The notes under the pieces: model-generated | What the model was told of the DNA's origin: nothing | Databases searched by the model: none | What the model saw: the letters and a program-made list of their open reading frames with translations, nothing else | Translations under genes and position numbers: made by a program | Shown: one piece after another, positions 1,404 through 9,854 of the stretch | Layout of the letters: every line of letters begins with the position of its first letter | Position numbering within the stretch: position 1 is the stretch's first letter | DNA from: a virus | IMG/VR virus record: IMGVR_UViG_3300007234_000117 | Span: 1 to 22,474 of that record | Length of the DNA: 22,474 nucleotides | Reading direction: 5' to 3' (one strand)

Positions 1404-1496
1404 ATGAAACATTGGGACCCTTTAGATCGTCTCCAAGTGTGGCTATGTGCTTGTTATATCTTGCTATTCATAGCACTTGTGATTAAGGGCCTTTAA
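1404..1496 (+). CDS. Single-pass membrane peptide (30 aa)
   Basis: A 30-codon frame beginning five bases after the previous stop, with GGAGGG at 1390-1395 about eight bases upstream of the ATG. The N-terminus is short and charged (MKHWDPLDRLQ), followed by a hydrophobic stretch from about residue 12 to 27 (VWLCACYILLFIALVI), ending KGL. This is the pattern of a tiny inner-membrane phage peptide. Its stop codon lies inside the 25-base promoter-like element at 1493-1517. Function unknown. A similar mini membrane peptide occurs at 12138-12233. Confidence 0.5.
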   Translation: MKHWDPLDRLQVWLCACYILLFIALVIKGL

Positions 1497-1517
1497 TAGA
1501 GGACCCTTATAGAGGAG
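1493..1517 (+). promoter_or_regulatory. Candidate phage RNA polymerase promoter, copy 1
   Basis: The sequence TTAATAG-A-GGACCCTTATAGAGGAG matches the element at 6297-6321 at 24 of 25 positions. Its plan resembles the T7 promoter (TAATAC..., then TATAG and a purine-rich start): TAATA, a nine-base G/C-rich middle, then TATA and G, which puts the inferred +1 at about 1512. It lies between the early gene block and the integrase. GGACCC (1501-1506) also pairs with GGGTCC (1517-1522) as a short inverted repeat. Use as a promoter is inferred. Confidence 0.7.
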
Positions 1518-3580: not shown

Positions 3581-3623
3581 GCCGGGGTTATGCGTTGGAG
3601 CCGATAGGAACAAGGGGTTATCA

Positions 3624-4448
3624 ATGGCACACCAACGGAACACTGTGAACATTCATCAAGTTGAAGCTCAGAAGAAATTGGAGATTTCAGGTGTCGAGGA
3701 AGGCATCCAACGGTTCCGTGAAAAGCAGTGGCGGGTTAAGCGCCGACCGGACGGATCAGTGACGCGGACGGAGGTCGGTATTGGTGACGGTGATGCTGGT
3801 ATGAGGATAGCTCGGGACATCGTGGGTACCGAGGACCAGGGCCTACTCAGGGGCATCCTCGATCTACAAGCTTCGGCTAAGGTAAGTGCTGGTAAGCGTG
3901 GACCACAACCTGGGTGGGCTGTTGGTGTTACAGCCCTTCCCGCTGATAAACTAGCACTGATCACTGTCCGGATAATCCTGAACTGCTACACCTTATCCTC
4001 GGTAGAGGTGGATGCGGGTGTGACTCGGGTATCACTAGCTATTGCTGATGCCGTCCGTGACGAGATCGACTTTGAGAATTGGCGGCGGGCCTCTGAGGAT
4101 GCAGCAAGGATTATTGGCTCTAAGAAAGGTGTCGTAACCCGTAGGATTTTTCAGAAGTGGCGTTCTGGTCGGGAAGATATCAAACGGACTGAGTGGTCAT
4201 CCGGTACCCGAGCGCATGTTGGTGCCGCCCTATTACATACAGCAATCACACACGGGGGTGGGTGGTTCTACCTATACTCGTTCGCCCACAGAGGACAACA
4301 GAAGCGAGTGATACGTGTCGCTCCCGAGGCTATTGCTGCTCTCAAGACCATCAACGAAGAGTTATCGACATCACAACCATACCGACTACCGATGATTGCA
4401 CCCCCACTACCTTGGCAACTCGATGAGGAGACAGTAAGTGGCCTATGA
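3624..4448 (+). CDS. T7-type RNA polymerase, N-terminal fragment
   Basis: 274 aa matching the N-terminal domain of single-subunit phage RNA polymerases (about T7 residues 1-278). Start chosen at the ATG at 3624 because AAGGGG (3612-3617) lies six bases upstream; a start at 3537 has no such signal. The C-terminal stretch RLPMIAPPLPWQLDEE matches the VVPPKPW segment of T7 polymerase just before its conserved GGGYW. In an intact polymerase the chain would continue into Gly-Gly-Tyr within about five residues. Here it reads ETVSGL and stops. The rest of the polymerase begins about 180 bases downstream in a different frame. This domain binds promoter DNA upstream of the start site, so the fragment should be needed together with the C-terminal protein at 4601-6265. 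Confidence 0.85.
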   Translation: MAHQRNTVNIHQVEAQKKLEISGVEEGIQRFREKQWRVKRRPDGSVTRTEVGIGDGDAGMRIARDIVGTEDQGLLRGILDLQASAKVSAGKRGPQPGWAVGVTALPADKLALITVRIILNCYTLSSVEVDAGVTRVSLAIADAVRDEIDFENWRRASEDAARIIGSKKGVVTRRIFQKWRSGREDIKRTEWSSGTRAHVGAALLHTAITHGGGWFYLYSFAHRGQQKRVIRVAPEAIAALKTINEELSTSQPYRLPMIAPPLPWQLDEETVSGL

Positions 4449-4779
4449 CGATCATGAGTATCTGAGCGATAGATTCAACAAGCCAGATACACCTCAACCC
4501 CAACCACCAGAAGACCCTCAGGGTTACAGGATTAGATACCTCGATGCGTGTCGTGACGCTGACAACTTACAACGTCGCATAACTAATATGGAGGCAGAAC
4601 TTGAGCTATACAGGCGGGTATTACCTAATCCAAACACCGTTCGTGACCGAGACGCTCCACCGGCACACTGCGGGATCGCCACAATTCATATCACAGGGTG
4701 CTGTCGATGCCCTAAACAGTGTCCAAGCAACACCTCGCCGAGTGAACCAGTACATCCTCGACGTACTACAGAAAGCTAA
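4438..4779 (+). CDS. Small protein encoded between and across the two RNA polymerase parts
   Basis: Frame from GTG at 4438 with GAGGAG (4425-4430) seven bases upstream, a good ribosome binding site. It overlaps the stop of the polymerase N-part by 11 bases and runs 179 bases into the C-part in another frame. Residues 1-30 are polar and Pro-rich (NKPDTPQPQPPEDPQGY). Residues 32-62 (YLDACRDADNLQRRITNMEAELELYRRVL) have heptad-like spacing consistent with a short coiled coil. Beyond about residue 64 the sequence is dictated by overlap with polymerase codons and becomes Cys/Pro/Thr-rich. No homologue is recognised. It could be a real small protein, a linker, or a chance frame on inserted DNA. Confidence 0.5.
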   Translation: MAYDDHEYLSDRFNKPDTPQPQPPEDPQGYRIRYLDACRDADNLQRRITNMEAELELYRRVLPNPNTVRDRDAPPAHCGIATIHITGCCRCPKQCPSNTSPSEPVHPRRTTES

Positions 4780-6265
4780 CGCAGCGGAAGACTCGTTGGG
4801 TGGTATCATTCCTGGCCTGGCCTTGGAACCCATGCCACCGAAGTATGACGCTGAGACCTGGGCGGCGATGTCTGAAGAACAGAGGACCTACCATAAACGC
4901 TACCGGGGTGATGTCCATTCAATGAACGGGACAGCCTTAAACAAATACGCCGTCATCATCCGCGTACTCCATGTCGCCCAGATGATGTCGAAGTATGAGC
5001 GTCACTGGCATCCTTGGAACTTTGATTTCCGGACACGTATGTATCCGATGAGTCAGGAATTTCACCCGCAAGGCCCAGACCTCGTCAAGTCACTACTGAT
5101 GTTTGCCGACGGTGAGCGTATTGGGCTTGAAGGTTACAGATGGTTGTTGTTCCGGTTAGCGACAACAGCGGGTCAGGATAAACTGACAAGGGATGATAGG
5201 ATAACGTGGGCCCAGGACCACCTGACCCGAGCCTTTGAGTGCGTAGAAAACCCGGAAGAAAACCGCTGGTGGCTAGAACTTGAGGACCCGTTACAGTTCC
5301 TAGCGACGGCTCATGAGTTACGGTTAGCGTCGGAGTTGTCTGACCCCTTCGACTTCCATAGTCATCTACCCGTCAACATCGACGGTTCCCAAAACGGGCT
5401 ACAGCATCTGTCGTTAATGGCTAGGGACCCGGTCGGTGCTGTAGCGACCAACTGTGCCCCTGGTCCCCGTCAGGACCTATATCTTGAGGTCCTCAATCGT
5501 GTGAAGGCCCGCGTCCATGAAGACGTCTGTACCGGACACCCACTCGCGTCCAAGTGGGCCCCAGCACTCAAACGTAACCACGTCAAACGGGCGTGTATGA
5601 CAACAAGCTATGGAGTGACCGAGCGTGGTATCCAGACGCAAATTATGAGTGATGGCTTCACCGAAATCTTTGACGTGGGTGACCGACTCTCAGCGGCTAA
5701 GTATCTCCAAGAGTGTATATCTGAGGCACTCGAAGGTACAATTACGAAAGGTAAGGAACTGATGGGCTACTTCCAAAAGTGTGCCCGCGCAGTCAGTGAG
5801 CAGCACATGCCGTTCATGTGGAGCAACTCGATAGGCTCCACCCTAACACAGTCATATCACAACCTGTCTGCCGGTCGTGTGAATACTTTGTGCGGTAAGC
5901 TGCGTCTGTTTACAGCGGAAGAGGGCCTTGGCATCAATCTCCGTAAGTCTACCCTCGCGGCATCACCAAACGTCGTCCATTCCCAAGATGCGGCTATGTG
6001 TCAGATGGTTATCAACCGGCTTACGTCTGAGGGGATAACAGACTTCGACGTGATCCACGACTCATATGGTGTCCATGCGTGTCACGCCTCACGGCTGGCA
6101 CATGTCACTCGTGAGGTCGCTTATGATATGTACAAAGATAACTGGCTCGTAACCTTCCACGAAAGCGTCGCCCGAAACGCCGTCGGTGTGTCACTACCCG
6201 ATCCCCCACCTCTCGGTGACTTCGAGGTTTCTGAGGTCTTGAAGGCGGACTTTTTCTTTTCCTAA
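4601..6265 (+). CDS. T7-type RNA polymerase, catalytic C-terminal fragment
   Basis: 554 aa covering the thumb, palm and fingers of single-subunit phage RNA polymerase. It opens at TGGYYLIQTPFV, equivalent to the GGGYW segment of T7 (about residue 284), so it resumes almost exactly where the N-part stops. Catalytic residues are intact: Asp261 in NIDGSQNGLQH (T7 Asp537), Lys329 in VKRACMTTSYG (T7 Lys631), Tyr337 (T7 Tyr639), and His486-Asp487 in IHDSYG (T7 His811-Asp812). Also seen are NPQG-like FHPQGPDL (about 154-161), PNVVHSQD (456-463) and an aromatic C-terminus, ADFFFS, like T7's ADFAFA. Start is TTG 4601 because GGAGG (4590-4594) is six bases upstream and a stop lies in frame at 4580; no ATG lies between. 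It should transcribe the replication and virion genes from promoters such as 6297. Confidence 0.93.
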   Translation: MSYTGGYYLIQTPFVTETLHRHTAGSPQFISQGAVDALNSVQATPRRVNQYILDVLQKANAAEDSLGGIIPGLALEPMPPKYDAETWAAMSEEQRTYHKRYRGDVHSMNGTALNKYAVIIRVLHVAQMMSKYERHWHPWNFDFRTRMYPMSQEFHPQGPDLVKSLLMFADGERIGLEGYRWLLFRLATTAGQDKLTRDDRITWAQDHLTRAFECVENPEENRWWLELEDPLQFLATAHELRLASELSDPFDFHSHLPVNIDGSQNGLQHLSLMARDPVGAVATNCAPGPRQDLYLEVLNRVKARVHEDVCTGHPLASKWAPALKRNHVKRACMTTSYGVTERGIQTQIMSDGFTEIFDVGDRLSAAKYLQECISEALEGTITKGKELMGYFQKCARAVSEQHMPFMWSNSIGSTLTQSYHNLSAGRVNTLCGKLRLFTAEEGLGINLRKSTLAASPNVVHSQDAAMCQMVINRLTSEGITDFDVIHDSYGVHACHASRLAHVTREVAYDMYKDNWLVTFHESVARNAVGVSLPDPPPLGDFEVSEVLKADFFFS

Positions 6266-6296: not shown

Positions 6297-6321
6297 TTAA
6301 TAGCGGACCCTTATAGAGGAG
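6297..6321 (+). promoter_or_regulatory. Candidate phage RNA polymerase promoter, copy 2
   Basis: The sequence TTAATAG-C-GGACCCTTATAGAGGAG is identical to the copy at 1493-1517 except for one base. It sits in the only gap (65 bases) between the RNA polymerase gene and the replication genes, where T7 carries its first class II promoters. The inferred +1 is the G at 6316 after TATA. The purine run GAGGAG at the predicted 5' end would double as the ribosome binding site for the gene at 6331, giving a leader of only about 15 bases. Confidence 0.75.
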
Positions 6322-6591: not shown

Positions 6592-7168
6592 ATTCCCCTG
6601 CATCGTCTCCCCGGCTGGTACCGCCGCATTCACATGGCTCTCGAAGCCTGACGATAAGTTCGATAAGGATGATCCGAAGTATAAGGTCACCCTGGTCCTC
6701 GATAAAAACGCAGAGACTGAAGCCTTCATGAGTAAGGTTGAGGATATCGGTACCGCTCACGCGAAGGAGCATGGTCCAAAGCTGAAGAAGAACTTCAAAT
6801 TACCTTTCCATGATGGTGACGACGAGACCGATAGGGACGGGAATGCGCGTGAAGAGTTCGCGGGCAAGATGCTTCTCAAGGTCAACTCTAAGTACAAACC
6901 ATCGCAGTTTGACTCCGCTCGGCAAGTGCTGCCGGAAGGTACCACAGCGATGTCCGGTGACAAGATCAAGCTGTCGATGATCGTCAAACCGTACGATGGC
7001 TTCGGTAGTGGGATCAGTCTCAAGCTGCGTAACGTACAACTGATCGAGAAGAACTCAACTGGTGGTGGCGACGGGGCCGCTGACTTTGAGGATGAAGAAG
7101 GTTACGTCGCGGACGTACCGAGTGACGTCAGTGATAGTAGTGATGAAGACGACAACGAGTTCGACTAA
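6584..7168 (+). CDS. Single-stranded DNA-binding protein (T7 gp2.5-like)
   Basis: 194 aa starting MAKFPCIVSPAGTAAFTWLSKPD, which aligns with the start of T7 gp2.5 (GTAEPYAYIAKPD). The core has the OB-fold pattern (YKVTLVLDKN near the start; KIKLSMIVKPYDGFGSGISLKLRNVQLIE near the end). The C-terminus is a long acidic tail (FEDEEGYVADVPSD, then SDSSDEDDNEFD) with an aromatic next to last. In T7 the equivalent tail contacts DNA polymerase and primase-helicase. Start chosen at 6584 with AAGG upstream; ATGs at 6560 and 6575 are in frame but lack well-placed ribosome sites. It coats ssDNA during replication and recombination. Confidence 0.9.
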   Translation: MAKFPCIVSPAGTAAFTWLSKPDDKFDKDDPKYKVTLVLDKNAETEAFMSKVEDIGTAHAKEHGPKLKKNFKLPFHDGDDETDRDGNAREEFAGKMLLKVNSKYKPSQFDSARQVLPEGTTAMSGDKIKLSMIVKPYDGFGSGISLKLRNVQLIEKNSTGGGDGAADFEDEEGYVADVPSDVSDSSDEDDNEFD

Positions 7169-7616
7169 GTCGCTCGCTGCTCAAGCATTAGCTGACATGC
7201 GGAAGGGGACCTCGGGTCCCCTTAAATCATTCAGCTTCTTGAATGAACCGGTGCCAGCTAGTCGCCCTAAAGTGACGCGGTGGGGTGTCTACTACGGTAA
7301 GCGGTACACTGTATGGCGGAAGGAAGCATACCCCGCCGCTGCCGCCTACGACGGAACGCCTACGGATAAACCCGTGGTCGTTCTCGTCGAGGCGGTGATG
7401 ACTAAGCCTAAGACCGGAAAGCTCCAAACCCCTCGTGGTGATATTGATAACTACGTGAAGGGGCCTCTCGACGCCATGACGGCGGGTAAGCGTTTCTGGA
7501 AAGACGATACGCAAGTCGTCGGGCTGAAGGCTTTCAAGAGATATGCCGAGGATGGGGAAGTCCCCGGCTTCTTTGTGCATTGGATAGAACTGGAGGAATT
7601 TCATGACGCAAGTTGA
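7143..7616 (+). CDS. RusA-like Holliday junction endonuclease
   Basis: About 157 aa if started at 7143. The family region begins FSFLNEPVPASRPKVTRWGVYYGKRY, then RGDIDNYVKGPLDAM with the conserved acidic residues of the RusA active site, then FWKDDTQVVGLKAFKRYAEDGEVPG with a further acidic pair. These motifs are typical of phage RusA-type resolvases, which cut four-way junctions and branched replication intermediates. The gene occupies the place of T7 gene 3 endonuclease between SSB and primase-helicase. The start is uncertain: 7143 overlaps the SSB gene by 26 bases, while ATG 7197 is immediately followed by a perfect hairpin. Neither has a strong Shine-Dalgarno sequence. Confidence 0.85.
   Translation: MKTTTSSTKSLAAQALADMRKGTSGPLKSFSFLNEPVPASRPKVTRWGVYYGKRYTVWRKEAYPAAAAYDGTPTDKPVVVLVEAVMTKPKTGKLQTPRGDIDNYVKGPLDAMTAGKRFWKDDTQVVGLKAFKRYAEDGEVPGFFVHWIELEEFHDAS
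7203..7223. other. Perfect 9-bp hairpin at the RusA-like gene start
   Basis: AAGGGGACC and GGTCCCCTT flank a three-base TCG loop. The hairpin lies four bases after the alternative ATG at 7197 and inside the open frame from 7143. There is no following T-run, so it does not look like an intrinsic terminator. It could restrict initiation at 7197 or act as an RNA processing site; both are inference. Confidence 0.55.
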
Positions 7617-7815
7617 ACAGGTCCGCGAACACCTCAACAAAGTCGGGTCAATCTCAAATATTGAGGCTCAGGCACTCTACCGTATCCGGGCACTCCCGCG
7701 CCGGATTTCGGACTTGGAGGAGTGCGGTTTTCCCATTTCTAGGGAACGCCGTGTCGATAACACAGGGCAGCGATATGTACGCTACCATAAGAGTGATCTG
7801 TCGGTTAAGGCGTAG
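7603..7815 (+). CDS. Small winged helix-turn-helix protein
   Basis: 70 aa with GGAGG (7592-7596) six bases before the ATG. The pattern VEQVREHLNKVGSISNIEAQALYRIRALPRRISDLEECGFPISRERR is that of a short helix-turn-helix domain common in phages: helix, turn (SISNIEAQALY), a recognition helix with RRISDL, then a wing (RYVRYH). The basic surface fits DNA binding. It overlaps the RusA-like gene by 14 bases. It is the only recognisable DNA-binding regulator candidate in the window, so it might bind the operator-like sites at 3397-3447. That link is speculation. Confidence 0.75.
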   Translation: MTQVEQVREHLNKVGSISNIEAQALYRIRALPRRISDLEECGFPISRERRVDNTGQRYVRYHKSDLSVKA

Positions 7816-7820
7816 TACTA

Positions 7821-8093
7821 ATGCGGGACCTTAGAGACGAGGTCTACAACGCCGCCATCCGTTGGCGGAAGACCCAATTAGCCTTTCAACAACTCACTCG
7901 TCGATCAGGTCTCACACAGACTTGGAGCGGTTTGTCTATAGAGGATTGGCATAACAACGCGAACCTCAAGGCCTTACTCGACGAGGCAATCGCACTGGAG
8001 AATAGGAATGCAAAAGGTAACGCTGACGATAACGACAGACGAGGGGACGATTACTTACGGTGGACCCAAGGCACCCTGCCCTTCGACGAATGA
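7821..8093 (+). CDS. Small helical protein, unknown (90 aa)
   Basis: 90 codons starting five bases after the previous stop. The N-terminal two thirds look helical (LRDEVYNAAIRWRKTQLAFQQLTRR, then LKALLDEAIALENRN). The final 29 residues (NAKGNADDNDRRGDDYLRW and on) overlap the next gene in another frame and look like low-complexity linker. No Shine-Dalgarno sequence is obvious before this ATG, so it may be translated by coupling. No family recognised. Confidence 0.55.
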   Translation: MRDLRDEVYNAAIRWRKTQLAFQQLTRRSGLTQTWSGLSIEDWHNNANLKALLDEAIALENRNAKGNADDNDRRGDDYLRWTQGTLPFDE

Positions 8094-8220
8094 AGACCGT
8101 GGTTGTGTTTGGATAACCCGTGACCATAACGGTAACGCAAGGACTTTACCGAAGCGATTCCGTAAGTCCGCTAAGCGTTGGGAGAACCTCGCTCGTACGA
8201 ATAGTAAGGCCGCAGTATGA
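8008..8220 (+). CDS. Small basic protein overlapping its upstream neighbour, unknown (70 aa)
   Basis: Begins inside the preceding gene in a different frame (86-base overlap), with GGAGAATAGG just before its ATG. The N-terminus MQKVTLTITTDEGTITYGG alternates like beta strands; the rest is basic (LPKRFRKSAKRWENLARTNSK). Its TGA overlaps the primase-helicase ATG, the same coupled layout seen across the operon, which favours it being real. Function unknown. Confidence 0.5.
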   Translation: MQKVTLTITTDEGTITYGGPKAPCPSTNEDRGCVWITRDHNGNARTLPKRFRKSAKRWENLARTNSKAAV

Positions 8221-9854
8221 GTGAAGAGGTAGCTGAATTACACGTCCCTTGTGAGGACTGCGGCTCCTCAGACGCACGGGTCATATACACCTCCGGTTGG
8301 TCTCATTGTTTTTCGTGTGAGACCAACCGAAAGGTCGGTGCTGGTGGTGACGAGGAGGAGCGCCCAGTGACTAACAAGGTGAAGAGTAGTCTCGCCCCTA
8401 TCGGTGAGTATATTGACATGCCTAAGCGTGGGCTCCGTCTTGATACGTGTAAGAAGTTTGGTTACTCTAAATCTAACTTTCGTGGGACACCATGTCATGT
8501 AGCGCCATATCATGACGATAAAGGAAAGGTGATAGGTCAGAAGTTACGTTTCGCGGGTAAAGACTTCTCCATCACTGGTACCTTAGACAATAAGTTGTTT
8601 GGTCGTAAGCTTTGGCAATCAGGTGGTAAGCGGCTCGTGATCACCGAAGGTGAGATCGACGCTATGTCTTACTCCCAGGTGACTAACCTCTCCTGGCCCG
8701 TCGTCTCAGTTCCTAATGGTGCCGCTGCGGCCTATAAGTCAATCAAAGCGAACATCGACTGGATTGAGTCGTTCGAGGTTGTTGTCTTTATGTTCGACAG
8801 TGATGAGCCAGGACAGAAGGCCGCACAAGAGTGTGCTGAAATACTCACTCCTGGTAAAGCCGCCATCGCTCGTTTACCTGAGGGGTATAAAGACGCCAAC
8901 GAGATGCTCCTAGCTCGGAAGATAAAGGAGCTTCAAGTCGCTGTTTGGAATGCTGAGGTGGCACGTCCGGATGGTATCATCAACGGCAATTCGCTTTGGG
9001 ATGACGTCAACGCACCTGTGGAAATGGGAACCCCCTTCCCTTGGAAGGGTCTCAATGATCTCACGTACGGTATGCGACGGGGGGAGATCATCGCGCTGAC
9101 CGCTGGTACAGGTACGGGTAAGTCCACGATCTGTGCTGAGATAGCTCACCACCTTGGTAACACGCTAAAACAGAACGTGGGCTATGTAGCGTTGGAGGAG
9201 AGCAGTAGTCGTTCTGGTCTTCGCCTTATGTCGATCCACTGTAACAAAACTTTACACCTTCCGAATACCAAGATCACTGACGATGAGCGTCGTAAGGCGT
9301 TCGATGAGACCCTCGGTACCGGACGGTATTATTTCTACGACCATTGGGGCAGTACGGGTGCGGACAACCTACTCCGTAAACTGTCGTACCTCGTCAAGGG
9401 CCTTGAGTGCCCGTGGATCATCCTTGATCACCTAAGTATCGTGGTGAGTGGGCTGGACCTGGGGGAGGACGAACGCCGCGCCATCGACAACACCATGACG
9501 GCCCTGCGGAGCTTCACTGAGGAGACCAAGTGCGGTCTCATCCTTGTGAACCACCTCAAGCGTACGACTAAAACCAAGTCACATGAGCGGGGGGCTCAGG
9601 TTGAGTTGAGTGACTTACGGGGTAGCCAATCGATATCCCAATTATCTGACACCGTGATCGCAGCGGAGCGAGACCAACAGTCAGATGAGGATGGGAACCT
9701 TATAACTTTGAGAGTCCTAAAGAATCGCTACGCGGGGTTCACCGGTACTGCTGGTACCCTTGAGTATGAAAGTAAAACCGGACGGCTAAAGGAATGCGGA
9801 ACGGACTTCCAACGGGAATTACCGGAGGAAGCGGATGGTGAAGAGTTCGATTGA
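8217..9854 (+). CDS. Bifunctional primase-helicase (T7 gp4-like)
   Basis: 545 aa. Residues 12-34 form a zinc-binding site (Cys12, Cys15, Cys31, Cys34) like that which lets T7 gp4 recognise primase sites. The TOPRIM primase core has Glu144 in ITEGEIDAM and Asp193/Asp195 in FMFDSDEPGQ. The helicase domain follows: Walker A AGTGTGKS at 296-303, acidic residues near 327-328 (LEESS), Walker B WIILDH ending at His405, the NHLKRT motif around 445-450, DLRGSQSISQ near 466-475, and a C-terminal acidic tail (ELPEEADGEEFD). In T7 the hexamer unwinds the fork and primes the lagging strand. The start ATG overlaps the previous stop. A strong internal start at codon 51 is described separately. Confidence 0.95.
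   Translation: MSEEVAELHVPCEDCGSSDARVIYTSGWSHCFSCETNRKVGAGGDEEERPVTNKVKSSLAPIGEYIDMPKRGLRLDTCKKFGYSKSNFRGTPCHVAPYHDDKGKVIGQKLRFAGKDFSITGTLDNKLFGRKLWQSGGKRLVITEGEIDAMSYSQVTNLSWPVVSVPNGAAAAYKSIKANIDWIESFEVVVFMFDSDEPGQKAAQECAEILTPGKAAIARLPEGYKDANEMLLARKIKELQVAVWNAEVARPDGIINGNSLWDDVNAPVEMGTPFPWKGLNDLTYGMRRGEIIALTAGTGTGKSTICAEIAHHLGNTLKQNVGYVALEESSSRSGLRLMSIHCNKTLHLPNTKITDDERRKAFDETLGTGRYYFYDHWGSTGADNLLRKLSYLVKGLECPWIILDHLSIVVSGLDLGEDERRAIDNTMTALRSFTEETKCGLILVNHLKRTTKTKSHERGAQVELSDLRGSQSISQLSDTVIAAERDQQSDEDGNLITLRVLKNRYAGFTGTAGTLEYESKTGRLKECGTDFQRELPEEADGEEFD
8294..8329. other. Perfect 12-bp inverted repeat inside the zinc-finger coding region
   Basis: CGGTTGGTCTCA (8294-8305) and TGAGACCAACCG (8318-8329) are exact reverse complements around a 12-base T-rich loop. 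The element lies within codons for the zinc-finger segment of the primase-helicase and 38 bases before the internal start at 8367. In mRNA it would fold into a stable hairpin. A role in modulating the ratio of long and short protein forms is inference. Confidence 0.6.
8354..8369 (+). promoter_or_regulatory. Internal ribosome binding site and GTG start for a short helicase form
   Basis: GGAGGAG at 8354-8360 precedes an in-frame GTG (8367-8369, codon 51 of the primase-helicase) by six bases. Initiation here gives a 495-aa protein that lacks the zinc-binding domain (Cys12-Cys34) but keeps TOPRIM and helicase domains. T7 gene 4 is known to make a short form, gp4B, from an internal start at codon 64, also just after its zinc-binding domain. 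The signal here is in the equivalent place. Confidence 0.65.

Follow-up and report, generated by a model that had tools for sequence, protein, structure and literature searches.

The window analysed here, a 22,474-nt stretch of viral DNA from an IMG/VR record, encodes a T7-type RNA polymerase in two genes, RNAP-N and RNAP-C (Table 1). RNAP-N ends in PPLPWQLDEETVSGL and RNAP-C begins with MSYTGGYYL, and neither frame crosses the gap between them, because the RNAP-N frame runs into seven stops from 4446 to 4584, while the RNAP-C frame has an upstream stop at 4580 and no other ATG, GTG or TTG before 4601. Together the two products make up one polymerase from end to end, since RNAP-N matches the Pfam family RPOL_N (PF14700, E 5.5e-15) and RNAP-C matches RNA_pol (PF00940, E 3.4e-83), both above the curated cut-offs, and the two occupy adjoining spans of phrog_414 (positions 60-245 and 249-816, respectively). 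Profiles compared with PDB sequences place RNAP-N on T7 residues 34-280 and RNAP-C on residues 293-882, and alignment with intact phage polymerases puts the cut in a short linker, between PPxPW and GGYY, at about T7 residues 281-285. These alignments place the cut precisely at the boundary of promoter-binding domain and catalytic core. An earlier note on this DNA had described a polymerase split over two reading frames, which the coordinates, the frame stops and the Pfam and PHROG spans confirm, and three Shine-Dalgarno sequences, all of which are present as described. It had also put the inserted DNA at about 180 bases; the gap exists, but it measures 152 nt from the RNAP-N stop to the RNAP-C start.

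Table 1. Features of the polymerase region and associated repeats in the window.
Feature	Coordinates	Strand	Details
Second copy of candidate promoter	1493..1517	+	TTAATAGAGGACCCTTATAGAGGAG; upstream of integrase gene
Shine-Dalgarno sequence of RNAP-N	3612-3617		AAGGGG
RNAP-N, N-terminal promoter-binding domain of T7-type RNA polymerase	3624..4448	+	274 aa; ATG 3624, TGA 4446-4448
Shine-Dalgarno sequence of middle ORF	4425-4430		GAGGAG; 7 nt before GTG
Doubtful middle ORF	4438..4779	+	113 aa; GTG start; overlaps both genes
Gap between RNAP-N and RNAP-C	4449..4600	+	152 nt
Shine-Dalgarno sequence of RNAP-C	4590-4594		GGAGG; inside gap
RNAP-C, catalytic core (thumb, palm, fingers)	4601..6265	+	554 aa; TTG start, stop 6265
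Candidate phage-polymerase promoter	6297..6321	+	TTAATAGCGGACCCTTATAGAGGAG; directly downstream of RNAP-C

RNAP-C keeps the equivalents of T7 D537, R627, K631, Y639, G640, H811 and D812, so the earlier claim that the catalytic residues are intact is borne out. A detail that it omitted is the DxxGR motif, which reads DFRTR in the window (RNAP-C residues 142-146), with the aspartate and the last arginine kept and the glycine replaced. DFRTR is common to the window, L102 and L113 (we designate related loci by L numbers), and the motif reads DFRYR in L100, DFRLR in the intact polymerase of L101 and DFRGR in L053; within the window's sub-clade the usually invariant glycine is thus threonine, tyrosine or leucine in split and intact members alike. 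Despite this variant, membership of the window polymerase in the T7-type single-subunit family is in no doubt on sequence grounds. Where it departs from that family is in the single chain, which is here divided between two genes, as it is in 23 loci overall. A check for a giant virion RNA polymerase, as the N4-like phages have, turned up no ORF above 602 aa in this 22-kb fragment.

Sequencing or assembly error is ruled out as the source of the junction by a second assembly and by the relatives described below. The contig IMGVR_UViG_3300006802_006374 (L001) aligns with 8299 bases of the window at 99.78% identity. The alignment is free of gaps, and none of its 18 substitutions falls within 4366-5115, so that the junction is identical. 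The insertion, whose removal by resequencing the earlier note had named as a refutation, is kept there without indels.

Altogether, 23 distinct phage or provirus loci, the window and 22 others, are cut at one and the same profile position, 245/249 (window, L053, L100, L102, L113, L138, L143, L144, L145, L147, L150, L152 to L161, L172 and L194). L053, from a 44-kb IMG/VR contig, with RNAP-N at 4904-5821 and RNAP-C at 6712-8409, was found via the phage's primase, and further split loci were obtained by profile searches; L194 lies within a 100-kb contig of a bacterial genome. Eleven of the 23 have record numbers in the style of isolate genomes, which we take to be IMG's naming rule. The phage and plasmid collections contain no isolate of the split lineage: the best matches to the window RNAP-C in the isolate phage collection are about 32% identical, and identity to those core proteins of the lineage that were tested does not exceed about 35% for any phage there. 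RNAP-N adjoins RNAP-C in every one of the 23 loci, although the RNAP-N proteins are only weakly similar between split groups (24%). In most loci the RNAP-C start lies 3 to 7 residues ahead of GGY (about 9 in L144 and about 18 in L152 and L155), as in MSYTGGYY in the window, MQITGGYY in L100, MSFDGGYY in L113 and MTKLQGGY in L153. The relatives have separate start codons, ATG among them, many preceded by an SD-like sequence, and the distance from RNAP-N stop to RNAP-C start ranges from -4 nt (an ATGA overlap, in L152 and L155) through 28 nt (L144) and 152 nt (window) to 1767 nt (L161); the L194 genes likewise overlap by ATGA. In the loci with ATGA overlaps, a frameshift into one chain could occur in principle; across the long gaps it could not. 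Two further breaks were seen elsewhere in the polymerase. In L148 (4397-4411), and at the same place in L149, it is broken just before DxxGR (profile 384/388) into adjacent ORFs in different frames, either a second fission site or a frameshift; in L132 (828-850) the frame is broken near profile position 160 into two overlapping ORFs, possibly by a frameshift error.

Whether relatives carry an intact gene or the same split had been raised as a check, and the shared cut in 23 loci is not the picture of one disrupted isolate. Because at least 22 other phages and proviruses carry the same cut, the arrangement looks like a stable working design rather than a broken gene. Purifying selection on both halves is indicated by dN/dS in five groups of related split loci, where RNAP-N gives 0.06-0.23 and RNAP-C 0.05-0.27; RNAP-N is the faster-evolving in most comparisons. 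The long branch of the window RNAP-C and its unusual DFRTR motif could be read as signs that the gene in this particular phage has decayed and no longer functions. Yet neither half contains a stop or frameshift, the catalytic residues are kept, relatives with the same layout are under purifying selection, and of the four substitutions that separate the two assemblies inside these genes three are synonymous (the other is S248P in RNAP-N), all of which makes decay very unlikely in our judgement.

The gap in the window has no Rfam match and no notable RNA fold (z -0.94), and its + strand has no promoter or terminator match. The open frame that spans it had been put forward as a third gene starting at GTG 4438, and as a possible third subunit or assembly factor. 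The frame is indeed open for 113 codons, with GAGGAG 7 nt ahead of its GTG, and the codon usage of its unique part is intermediate (10% of on-frame windows score lower and 2% of off-frame windows higher), so that it outscores 98% of the latter. At the same time, chance would give an open run of this kind about 10% of the time in the gap and 18% where the frame overlaps RNAP-C; codon usage in that overlap is non-coding-like and scores lower than all on-frame control windows; no Pfam or PHROG match exceeds the cut-off; and the only homologues among the fetched loci are copies of the same phage. We take this as weak evidence of a gene, and one that is probably not part of the polymerase. What relatives carry between their polymerase genes points the same way, as their gaps contain other genes or none, and a role for this frame as a third subunit or assembly factor seems to us highly improbable; the earlier idea of a three-protein enzyme is not supported.

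In L100 the gap holds a Band_7/SPFH protein (E 7e-30), in L113 and L161 a Bro-N antirepressor gene each, and other gaps hold small uncharacterised proteins. Two families of these, of 55 aa and 75 aa, are conserved in the L150-L161 group (for example, at L153 953-1341); among the other fetched loci the sole trace of them is a weak match (E 1e-3) between the 75-aa gene of the L153 group and a 77-aa gene in the L113 gap. This match and the Bro-N genes shared by L113 and L161 are suggestive only as evidence of a single origin. Three relatives (L152, L155 and L194) have no gap gene at all, and since their genes abut by ATGA overlap, no insert is needed for the split. No homing endonuclease was found in the window's gap, and the gap ORFs tested in relatives gave Band_7, Bro-N or nothing, the nearest approach being weak endonuclease-profile matches (E 2e-5 or worse) in the tail of the L161 Bro-N protein; with no clear endonuclease in the gaps tested, we do not favour one as the cause of the split. 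From these comparisons, the conserved trait is the split and not the insert, and the intervening DNA appears to be variable spacer or cargo that is no part of the enzyme.

The gap interrupts a conserved stretch of an essential gene, which is where introns and inteins typically reside, and an unrecognised intron, or a split intein in halves, would restore one full-length polymerase. The intron had been named as the main rival to a two-chain enzyme. Rfam searches of the window, L053, L100, L102, L113 and L101 gave no match, a self-splicing intron would need more than 152 nt, and there is no room for intein parts, as RNAP-N ends 10 residues after the W and RNAP-C starts 4 residues before GGYY. 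Relatives moreover have ATG starts, SD-like sequences of their own and distances down to -4 nt, three of them with abutting genes. We reject the intron, and splicing of either kind is barely credible here.

In the RNAP-C tree, all split rows fall in one clade of 34 rows (support 98/91), 22 of them split, and the genes of the nearest outgroups are intact. All 16 members of one sub-clade (L053 and 15 others) are split; the sub-clade of 18 that includes the window has 6 split members and 12 not split at this place. With the 22 split rows the tree needs five changes, at least four of them forced by well supported branches, and an AU test on the first five split loci found rejects (p 0.005) a single clade without later change. 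The tree is compatible both with one ancestral fission and several later re-fusions, which would account for the intact genes inside the lineage, and with fission that recurred at the same permissive linker. The W-to-GGY linker has 13 residues in the intact L101 and about 28 in the intact L139, as against about 4-8 in the outgroups; these long linkers are suggestive only as a trace of re-fusion. We take the split to be old within this lineage of podovirus-like phages and proviruses.

The two candidate promoters in the window are near-identical 25-mers, TTAATAG[A/C]GGACCCTTATAGAGGAG, of which 0 are expected by chance, and no promoter-like copy follows RNAP-N. Distinct repeats occur in other split genomes. 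The L153 genome, for instance, has 3 copies of TAAAGCGAGTYACTTATAA when up to 3 mismatches are allowed, where 0 are expected, and the core of this repeat resembles the T7 promoter. In L143, L145, L150, L153, L156, L160 and L161, one T7-promoter-like copy lies directly after the RNAP-N stop and another after RNAP-C; the similarity of the two exceeds that in 200 of 200 shuffles, and the sequence agrees within a genome and differs between groups. If these repeats are promoters, the RNAP-C gene would have its own phage promoter in at least these seven relatives. L143 also contains a block of about 60 nt repeated after RNAP-N and RNAP-C (2735-2817 and 5134), with a further degenerate copy at 2817. 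Upstream of the polymerase in the window lies a tyrosine integrase gene (1759-2877; PF00589, E 3.8e-21), which makes the phage probably temperate. Ahead of this gene, between 1604 and 1751, are short direct repeats (a 17-mer three times at 12-nt steps from 1604, and two copies of a 29-mer from 1694), which may be operators or arm sites for the integrase.

A bolder reading of this arrangement, which we think unlikely, is that the promoter-binding domain, once cut from the core, became a sigma-like subunit under its own control. If this is true, then in the sub-lineage with a promoter-like repeat after the RNAP-N gene the core could be made from a separate transcript driven by the phage polymerase; small amounts of enzyme would lead to more core and so switch the phage towards lytic growth, and the gap would be a landing site for regulators such as the Bro-N antirepressors.

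The reading that we consider highly probable is more modest, namely that two separately translated chains, a 274-residue promoter-binding chain and a 554-residue core, dock into one T7-type polymerase. AlphaFold2 models built on the clade alignment predict with confidence that each half folds like its T7 counterpart: RNAP-N (pLDDT 85.5) finds its best PDB matches in T7 RNAP elongation complexes (TM 0.62 by query length), and RNAP-C (pLDDT 90.9, pTM 0.89) reaches TM 0.83 to T7 RNAP. Because the cut lies in a short linker, the chains, each translated from its own start, should adopt the T7 RNAP fold and meet at the interface used there, and the assembled enzyme would then recognise T7-type promoters of the phage itself. 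Assembly and joint action of the chains we infer from the folds, from N4 RNAPII and from lab-split T7 RNAP, both discussed below. In T7 RNAP, the part that corresponds to the N chain contacts the promoter upstream and carries the melting hairpin, and the part that corresponds to the C chain carries the specificity loop, so both chains should be needed at promoters. It could instead be that the core alone is the polymerase and that RNAP-N, with its faster evolution and low similarity between groups, has taken another role, for example as a regulator. The invariable position of RNAP-N beside RNAP-C, its retained RPOL_N fold and the presence of the domain in the single chain of intact relatives speak against this, and we give it very little credence. 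The docked two-chain enzyme has its own difficulties in the unusual DFRTR motif, the long branch of the window RNAP-C and lab split sites that lie elsewhere. Nonetheless, the natural two-chain polymerase proposed in the earlier note is strongly supported by the 23 loci, purifying selection, separate starts and the predicted T7-like folds of the halves. The T7-promoter-like repeats of the window and of split relatives also favour it.

T7 RNAP serves as the model for single-subunit RNA polymerases, and the split lineage makes it testable what a separate promoter-recognition subunit gains; it also offers many natural partner pairs for study of the interface and for orthogonal split polymerases. 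Essential enzyme genes broken into two translated pieces are familiar from T4-like phages, where the breaks arose by homing endonuclease insertion. Other DNA lies between the pieces in both cases, but the lineage described here has no clear endonuclease and includes three relatives without an insert. The polymerases of T7, LUZ100, CRP and Pelagibacter phages share the domains, catalytic residues and fold of the window enzyme; in all seven isolate records whose gene tables were read the polymerase is one intact gene, in contrast to the two genes of the window, and LUZ100 resembles the window in having an integrase upstream of the polymerase gene. T7 RNAP itself remains active when split in the laboratory at several places and its fragments are co-expressed (Segall-Shapiro et al. 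2014, PMC4299498). The split sites named in that text, 67, 179 and 601, do not include this linker, and what is there called the 'sigma fragment' of the engineered enzyme is the C-terminal one (PMC4299498).

The closest natural parallel is N4 RNAPII of the Schitoviridae (gp15 and gp16), a proven two-chain T7-type enzyme whose chains align to non-overlapping parts of T7 RNAP, gp15 carrying the N-terminus, thumb and DxxGR and gp16 the palm and fingers, and whose origin and advantage have been called unclear (PMC4496689). It was the only natural two-chain relative that we found described in the open-access literature. The likeness lies in a T7-type polymerase encoded as two chains. N4 RNAPII is cut after DxxGR, whereas the window polymerase is cut before the thumb and has DxxGR in its C chain, and on this cut position we reject assignment to the N4 type; the N4 enzyme is also much smaller (269 + 404 aa) and works with the cofactors gp1 and gp2. 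In the same open-access literature, which leaves out most subscription papers, we found no description of this cut position or of the split lineage. This cut and its phage lineage are thus apparently undescribed, while the two-chain T7-type polymerase as such is already known from the N4-like phages.
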